DNA from: an uncultured Pelagibacteraceae bacterium
GTDB taxonomy: Bacteria; Pseudomonadota; Alphaproteobacteria; Pelagibacterales; Pelagibacteraceae
NCBI GenBank assembly: GCA_902578775.1
Contig: CACHEF010000003.1
Span: 62,001 to 126,000, forward strand
DNA length: 64,000 nt
Reading direction: 5' to 3'
The notes below the pieces were generated by a model. The model had not been told where the DNA came from, did no database searches, and saw only the letters and a list, made by a program, of their open reading frames with translations. Within the stretch, counting starts at the first letter, position 1. Each line of letters opens with the position of its first letter. This document shows positions 1,316 through 3,086 of the stretch, one piece after another. A program made the translations under genes and the position numbers.

Positions 1316-2570
1316 TTAATTAAATATTTTATTTGTGTTGTTAGGAAAAAAACAATTAATAATTTGACCTTTTTTAAATTTTGATCGTCCATGTGGTAGC
1401 ACTGCCCAGATATTTGATCTAATAAATGAGTTAATTCTAAAAGATTCTTGTCCAGGTAATAACTTTACTTCTAATTTACCATTTTTAGTTGAGTTAAGTT
1501 TGCTTTTTATAAATCTTGTAAATTTTTTATGTTTTTCAAAATTATTTTTTAAATAGGCCTTTATTGGTTTTTCATGTTGAAGATTTAGAATATTTTCAAT
1601 AAATGGATAAACAAAAAATCTAAAACAAGCAGCAGAAGAAATTGGATTTCCTGGTAAACCAAATATTACTTTTTCCTTTCCTTTCATTTTAGCAAATAAA
1701 ATTGGTTTACCTGGTCTTATAGCAACACCCTTAAAATAATTTGATAATCTAAATTTTTTTACAATCTTGGGGATATAATCAAATTTTCCAGCTGAAACAG
1801 CCCCTGAGGTTATTAAAATATCAACTTTCGAATTTATCATTTTACTCAACTGTTTTTCAAAAATAAATTCATCTTTATCTTTTAGAATTCCACCATCTTT
1901 AAGATTAAATGAGAAATTACTTTTTAAAGATTGAATATAATATAAATTCGAATTTCTTACTTTCCAATTAGGAATTTTAAATTGATTAGTAATTTCATTT
2001 CCTGTTGAAAAAAAATAAAATATTTGGAATTTTCTTTACTTTGATATTTTTTATTCCAAGAGTTTTAAAAGCTAAAATGTGATTTGATTTTAGAATAGTT
2101 CCTTTTTTTACAATTAAATCTTTTTTTTTAAAATCTGATCCTTCAAATCTTACATTCTGAAATTTTTTAATTTTTTTATTTATTAATATATATTTTGGTT
2201 TTTTTTTATATGGATAATAAACAATTTGTTCTTTTGGAATAATTGTATCAAAACCCTTGGGTAATAAACCTCCAGTCATAATTTCATAAGTTTTAAATTT
2301 TTGAAATTTTCTATTTATTGGTTTATTACCTGCGGCAATTGAACCAGAAATCAAAAATAATTTACTTTTTTTTTTGTTTAAATTATTTGTATCTCTAGAG
2401 TTAATTGTAAAACCATCAAAAGAAGAATTATTTGCTGAAGGGTAATTCACCTTTGAATAAATATTTTCTGCACTTATTCTATTTAAACTTTTTGAACTTT
2501 TAATGTATTCATCTCCTATTAGAATTTTGCCTCTTTTAAGTATTTTTAATGCTTGGCTATAAGATTTCAT
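1316..2570 (-). pseudogene. moeA: molybdopterin molybdenumtransferase MoeA, interrupted by a frameshift
   Basis: MoeA inserts molybdate into adenylated molybdopterin in molybdenum cofactor synthesis. Two adjacent reading frames (1995-2570 and the frame ending at 1316) are the N- and C-terminal parts of one MoeA of about 417 residues. The N-part has NSSFDGFTI and MTGGLLPKGFDTIIP; the C-part has ITSGAVSAGKFDYIP and FGLPGNPISS. They are joined through a run of eight A bases at 2008-2015. Removing one A restores the family motif STGNE exactly at the join and opens the whole intervening stretch (1850-2007), which has its own stop-free translation. As it stands the protein ends after LFFFNRK. The cause may be true decay, a sequencing or assembly indel, or a slippage-tolerated site. 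The opposite-strand NifU-like gene starts 33 bases away. Confidence 0.82.
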
Positions 2571-2603: not shown

Positions 2604-3086
2604 ATGGATTTAGAGATACTCAACATTGCGTCAGACACAATTAATTATAAAGATATAAAAAAACATACTCATTATTCAAAATTAAAAAATTCTTTATGTG
2701 GTGATGAGATAAAAATAAAATTGATTATAAAAGATGAAAAAATAATTGATTTTGGATATCAAGGAAATTCATGCGTATATTGTCAAGCATCTGCAAGTTT
2801 ACTATCAAAAATCTCAATAAATAGTAAAAAAAACAGAATTAATGAATTATGTGATGCAGCAAAATTATATTTTGATGGTGATGTTAAAATAAAATTAATT
2901 AAATGGGACTCTTTAAAAAGTTTATTCAATAAAAAAAATATTCCTCGTAAAGAATGTATATTATTACCTTTTAAAACTTTAAAAAAAAATAGTAACAAGC
3001 TAAATAGTGGAAAACTTAAAAAAATCTATATTAGCAGGTTTATTTTCTATAATTACCATTGGTGTACTTACAGTTTTAACTTATAA
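2604..3086 (+). CDS. NifU/SufU-like iron-sulfur scaffold protein
   Basis: A small scaffold-family protein. It shows SLCGDEI, then GNSCVYCQASASLLSK, and late in the protein RKECILLPF, which together place the three conserved cysteines of the SufU/IscU family in the right order; these hold a nascent Fe-S cluster or zinc in that family. The last ~28 residues after LLPFKTLKK look foreign to the family and are read from bases that also encode the start of the next gene (80-base overlap). An A9 run at 2981-2989 lies just where the family usually ends; one extra A would give a stop at once. The natural end may therefore be near 2993. Confidence 0.72.
   Translation: MDLEILNIASDTINYKDIKKHTHYSKLKNSLCGDEIKIKLIIKDEKIIDFGYQGNSCVYCQASASLLSKISINSKKNRINELCDAAKLYFDGDVKIKLIKWDSLKSLFNKKNIPRKECILLPFKTLKKNSNKLNSGKLKKIYISRFIFYNYHWCTYSFNL

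Follow-up and report, generated by a model that had tools for sequence, protein, structure and literature searches.

The closest described counterparts of the gene analysed here are frameshifted genes with poly(A)/poly(T) tracts in Blochmannia and Buchnera, which resemble it in having an AT-rich genome, a single indel in an A/T run and a gene that is otherwise intact (PMC3017870). In Blochmannia vafer, eight genes carry frameshifts in such runs, and the four that were tested show no acceleration of rate (PMC3017870); earlier work cited in the same paper puts full-length transcripts at 30%. For a human A8 run, cited in PMC1088944, about a tenth of the product is full length, and that paper finds that, for a large share of genomes, selection against runs sets in at nine. 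In genome-wide data on RNA errors from E. coli and Buchnera, most slippage within runs is by insertion. Runs hold 151 of 157 Buchnera insertions, against only 16 of 57 deletions; run deletions also increase with run length, and no restored frame was detected (PMC5574713).

Within SAR11, mutS and mutL are described as missing in subclades Ic and IIa.A (PMC12374537), and two genera are described as having no molybdenum cofactor (Moco) genes, for which streamlining is the authors' hypothesis (PMC12636525). A superficial survey of the SAR11/Pelagibacter literature on homopolymer frameshifts or slippage turned up nothing on the present case. The window, by which we mean the whole 64,000-nucleotide stretch of DNA analysed (G000:C3:62001-126000), differs from the Blochmannia and Buchnera cases in coming from a free-living marine lineage, in a frame that needs -1 or +2 to be restored, and in evidence drawn from sequence. 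Its run is also shorter, at eight bases, whereas PMC3017870 counts tracts of at least nine, with one named case of 11.

The moeA break and its site in relatives

The window belongs to a 1.13-Mb genome in 24 contigs that is 88.7% complete. In its moeA gene, a T8 run with one T too many breaks the reading frame (Table 1). The first-pass annotation had described two MoeA halves in different frames meeting at this run, and direct reading together with Pfam matches on both ORFs bears this out. The MoeA_N (2.1e-30), MoCF_biosynth (6.7e-15) and MoeA_C (5.2e-08) domains are present in order, the first in the N-terminal ORF and the other two in the C-terminal ORF, whose match begins inside the MoCF domain at profile position 55 of 144. 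One continuous moeA reading frame is absent from the assembled window sequence. Replacing T8 with T7 yields a single open MoeA frame of 417 aa containing ILFFSTGNEIT, so that dropping one base does join the halves and restore the STGNE motif, as had been proposed; the region between the early stop (1995-1997) and the TTG at 1849 is likewise open in the restored frame. Adding two T also restores the frame, while adding one does not and meets stops soon after. Since the window holds 87 A/T runs of at least eight, the T8 run itself is unremarkable, and the frame break is the unusual part.

Table 1. Positions in the window of the moeA and sufU-like features.
Feature	Position	Strand	Basis
moeA, molybdopterin molybdotransferase, in two frames	1316..2570	-	Pfam MoeA_N, MoCF_biosynth, MoeA_C; relatives
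N-terminal ORF, 191 aa, premature stop right after T8	1995..2570	-	ORF list, Pfam
C-terminal ORF, 177 aa, first internal TTG (1849) as start	1316..1849	-	ORF list, Pfam
T8 on coding strand (A8 on +)	2008..2015	-	Direct reading; frame edits; 52 relatives
sufU-like gene, 160 aa	2604..3086	+	NCBIfam SUF_scaf_2
A9 run in sufU-like gene	2981..2989	+	A8 at same place in L034

Near-full-length moeA relatives are 48-84% identical. The nearest named relative found is the uncultured Pelagibacteraceae record AG-461-O10 (L034), with 84% identity in MoeA, on which basis we assign the lineage to SAR11; AG- record names of this kind we take to denote single-cell genomes. Its intact MoeA matches NCBIfam PRK10680 (1.7e-76) with 257.6 bits, under the curated cut-off of 440. 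With the read-through MoeA as query, 83 of the 201 genomes surveyed in the genus gave a moeA match (the window's genome counted), of which 68 hold a near-full-length single-frame copy, two a split copy (G000, the window's genome, and G159) and 13 a partial copy. The resulting split rate of 2/70 omits the 13 partial copies; the G006 and G153 copies end at contig edges. Four of the 68 single-frame copies (G192, G101, G158 and G200) have one TAA each, after residue 407.

The site of the run was compared in 52 copies, namely 49 of the 82 matching relatives plus three named records (L034-L036), and all 52 are in frame there; an out-of-frame slippery run conserved among these relatives was not found. 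By longest T run, 34 copies have seven bases there, eight have six, four have four, three have nine, two have eight and one has five. In L034 the site reads TTG TTT TTT TCA, and in L021 the T7 sits two bases earlier. The split moeA of G159 (L037, C14) keeps its frame at the window's site; its break lies in another part of the gene, at a T6A6 run, and looks like a +1 change. Seven bases in relatives had been set in advance as the sign of an error, and they occur in 34 of 52 copies, the nearest relative included; the same pattern also fits a fresh mutation.

Constraint on moeA and state of the Moco pathway

Between the window and L034, residues 1-185 have a dN/dS of 0.170 and residues 186-417 one of 0.147; in residues 186-239, from the break to the first internal start, it is 0.119. 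Against the more distant G132 and G167, the window gives 0.142 and 0.201 in the N-terminal half, 0.218 and 0.247 in the C-terminal half, and 0.322 and 0.571 in residues 186-239 alone; for L034 the C-terminal half gives 0.130 and 0.167, and residues 186-239 give 0.115 and 0.275. Nonsynonymous differences in residues 186-239 against G132/G167 are nearly equal, at 34.2/36.8 for L034 and 34.2/33.0 for the window. A relative-rate count, taken where G132 and G167 agree, found four window-only changes in the N-terminal half and 13 in the C-terminal half, with 11 and six L034-only changes (Fisher p 0.037 for the asymmetry), which leans towards slight relaxation of the C-terminal half. In the second half of moeA, every column that is at least 93% conserved in the 52 aligned sequences is kept, and no second lesion was found in the gene. 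Measured against L034, moeA appears little decayed, or not at all.

The remaining pathway genes examined, moaA, moaC, moaE and moaB, are open and intact in the window's genome. MoaA and MoaC score above NCBIfam cut-offs, MoaE is over the Pfam and under the NCBIfam cut-off, and MoaB, at 219 bits, falls just under its cut-off of 222.4. A survey of Moco enzymes, as the first-pass annotation had suggested, located two intact in this genome: a SorT-like sulfite dehydrogenase adjoining moaA (541 bits, cut-off 570) and MsrP, which together with MsrQ is intact on another contig, both above cut-offs. Because it keeps these two Oxidored_molyb enzymes, Moco still has users. It appears that Moco is in use and that a null moeA would be costly; such an allele would waste intact Moco genes and enzymes, which supports an intact moeA in the cell. 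Taken with the little or no decay of moeA, these intact genes and enzymes indicate that the break is either very recent or not real.

Neither MoCoBD_1 enzymes nor a formate-dehydrogenase-sized PF00384 protein was found in this genome (88.7% complete); its only PF00384 frame, of 679 aa, is presumably NuoG, judging from its size. In this it differs from SAR11 strain HTCC1062, whose moeA (SAR11_0685) belongs to the same family, is annotated for Moco synthesis and lies near fdhF, fdsB, fdhD and mobA (PMC3160333). Loss of formate dehydrogenase was considered as a cause of moeA decay and rejected, given the two Oxidored_molyb enzymes retained in the window's genome and the two also present in the nearest relative, where moeA is intact.

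Other lesions in Moco-related genes were seen in the genus. The MsrP gene of G167 (L125, C23) has an in-frame TAA inside it, and in the partial moeA of G022 (L042, C12) an in-frame TGA lies close to the end. Moco genes with real damage therefore exist in the genus or in its assemblies. A MoCoBD_1 gene of the xanthine-dehydrogenase family in G150 (L116, C11) is also split, apparently not at a homopolymer.

Homopolymer breaks in other genes and on the contig

The cell-wall gene mraY is expected to be essential, so that a split copy should reflect either an error or some form of rescue. It was matched in 137 of 201 genomes, with 130 full-length single-frame, two split and five partial copies. The mraY split rate omits the five partial copies, and the G200 copy ends at a contig edge; the assembled part of the window's genome has no mraY match, so this control consists of relatives only. 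In G012, a genome in a single contig with a listed completeness of 100%, mraY (L129, C1:185370-186453; identified by NCBIfam TIGR00445) is split by a surplus A in an A9 run, and in G128 (L127, C23) it is split at a T8 where T7 keeps the frame. Homopolymer splits thus affect two of 132 usable mraY copies and two of 70 moeA copies (Fisher p 0.61, with counts small enough to miss a moderate difference). A moeA split rate that is not above the mraY baseline favours an ordinary cause, as do the +1 change in sufU and the lack of a MutS match described below. A further homopolymer split was seen in moaC of G153 (L115, C38), where T7 breaks the frame and T6 keeps it, one case among the 82 of 201 genomes with a moaC match, many of these genomes being incomplete. 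Six homopolymer breaks were inspected in all, two in the window's genome and four in relatives, and five are +1 by comparison; the bias has p 0.06 for 5/5 and p 0.03 for 6/6 if G159 is counted. The G150 split was left out of this tally as not homopolymer-like.

Divergent from moeA lies a sufU-like gene (1.7e-14 and 54 bits against SUF_scaf_2, under the curated cut-off of 92.5) of 160 aa, versus 131-136 aa in the relatives listed. An A8 version of its A9 run ends the protein at 132 aa, and the ORF as assembled runs 28 aa beyond the end of L034's, overlapping the next ORF. Two random coding runs of at least eight fall within 1 kb of each other with a probability of 0.023. The two +1 runs, about 1 kb apart, hint at a local cause, a hint that is weakened by the locus itself being rich in long runs.

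Elsewhere on contig C3, 113 other coding A/T runs of at least eight, a tally that excludes moeA's own three other such runs, lie inside uninterrupted ortholog matches, so that moeA and sufU make 2/115. The assembly is therefore not generally bad at homopolymers, and a general failure of this kind, considered as a candidate, was not seen on C3. Among 97 ortholog-covered ORFs of at least 100 aa on C3, only moeA was found to be internally split, in a survey that would miss a break close to the end of a gene, the sufU one included. Applied to G012, the same survey brought up its split mraY; a second G012 match, of 102 aa, was set aside, and one G132 match was dropped as antisense. The inner-stop search filtered out proteins of 150 aa or less, and its rows at C3:12662, 32711 and 54849 were taken to be antisense or to start upstream of the gene. 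Of 22 other inner-stop rows that were dropped, three were inspected (window 9664, twice, and 11930) and proved to be an antisense ORF or an upstream start; the other 19, of 80-132 aa, were judged antisense or spurious uninspected.

Origin of the extra T and its meaning

At the run, the window's moeA differs from that of relatives by a single base, coding potential is intact on both sides of the break, and the split rate does not exceed that of mraY. Nothing seen at the break requires an unusual mechanism. Of the explanations weighed, an error of sequencing or assembly ranks first, ahead of a fresh null allele that is real, with rescue by slippage third. A homopolymer-length error in the contig is our leading explanation, held at even strength and partly as a matter of judgement. 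The moeA of the cell would then be intact, with T7, and the extra T would exist only in the assembled contig, having arisen in sequencing or assembly rather than in the cell, with low local read depth, amplification or assembly as its possible source; the A9 run of sufU would be a second error of the same kind. Several observations argue against an error: the split mraY in the single-contig G012, listed as complete, the homopolymers intact elsewhere on C3, the lack of a MutS match, the breaks outside homopolymers, and a C-terminal half that is less constrained against distant relatives.

A real and very recent T7 to T8 replication slippage, in a lineage that lacks mismatch repair and with a null moeA in this cell or strain as the outcome, is a tenable though less probable explanation. 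A search of 61 genomes from the genus, of which 10 have a completeness of at least 90%, gave no MutS match (controls 11/14 positive). This makes real homopolymer indels by replication slippage plausible, and mutS/mutL loss in two SAR11 subclades is published. The patchy occurrence of Moco genes (moeA 83/201, moaC 82/201, in genomes many of which are incomplete; two SAR11 genera without them), the relative-rate asymmetry of the C-terminal half and the in-frame stops in G022 moeA and G167 MsrP are further points for a fresh null. However, the Moco genes examined are intact, moeA carries no second lesion, the asymmetric changes spare conserved columns, and moeA is split no more often than mraY. 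A real null allele would leave Moco synthesis unfinished and the two Moco enzymes without activity.

It is unlikely that T8 is real and that some full-length MoeA is made by slippage, through RNA polymerase (-1 U or +2) or a +1 ribosomal shift. Constraint that carries on past the break against L034, the Blochmannia vafer precedents proposed for AT-rich endosymbionts (PMC3017870), the human A8 case (PMC1088944) and the rise of Buchnera run deletions with length (PMC5574713) speak for it, and the +1 split mraY of G012, if real, would need such rescue. Yet -1 or +2 is required here, +1 meeting stops soon, whereas slippage in Buchnera runs is mostly insertion and frame restoration is not among the results reported there (PMC5574713); T8 is also shorter than the nine bases from which, for a large share of genomes, such runs are selected against (PMC1088944), and the site is in frame in 52/52 relatives. 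The first-pass annotation had offered a fresh null, an error and slippage side by side: what stands is a single surplus base that either arose very recently or is not real, and slippage gained no positive support. We think it quite improbable that free-living SAR11 bacteria without mismatch repair harbour real +1 homopolymer frameshifts, as in mraY and moeA, that may be tolerated through partial frame restoration by transcript or ribosome, a tolerance that has until now been proposed for endosymbionts of insects. A MoeA that functions in two pieces, or programmed frameshifting that is conserved, is very improbable, as both halves being open is the only point for it, while 52 relatives are single-frame at the site and the C-terminal ORF starts inside the MoCF domain.

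Should the extra T be an error, as we favour, it is an annotation issue: in the three genes tallied, 2/70 moeA copies, 2/132 mraY copies and 1/82 genomes with moaC look split at homopolymers, and caution is called for when Moco or other pathways are scored as present or absent. Should it be real, the lack of MutS would make the homopolymers of a streamlined genome frequent sites of loss of function.
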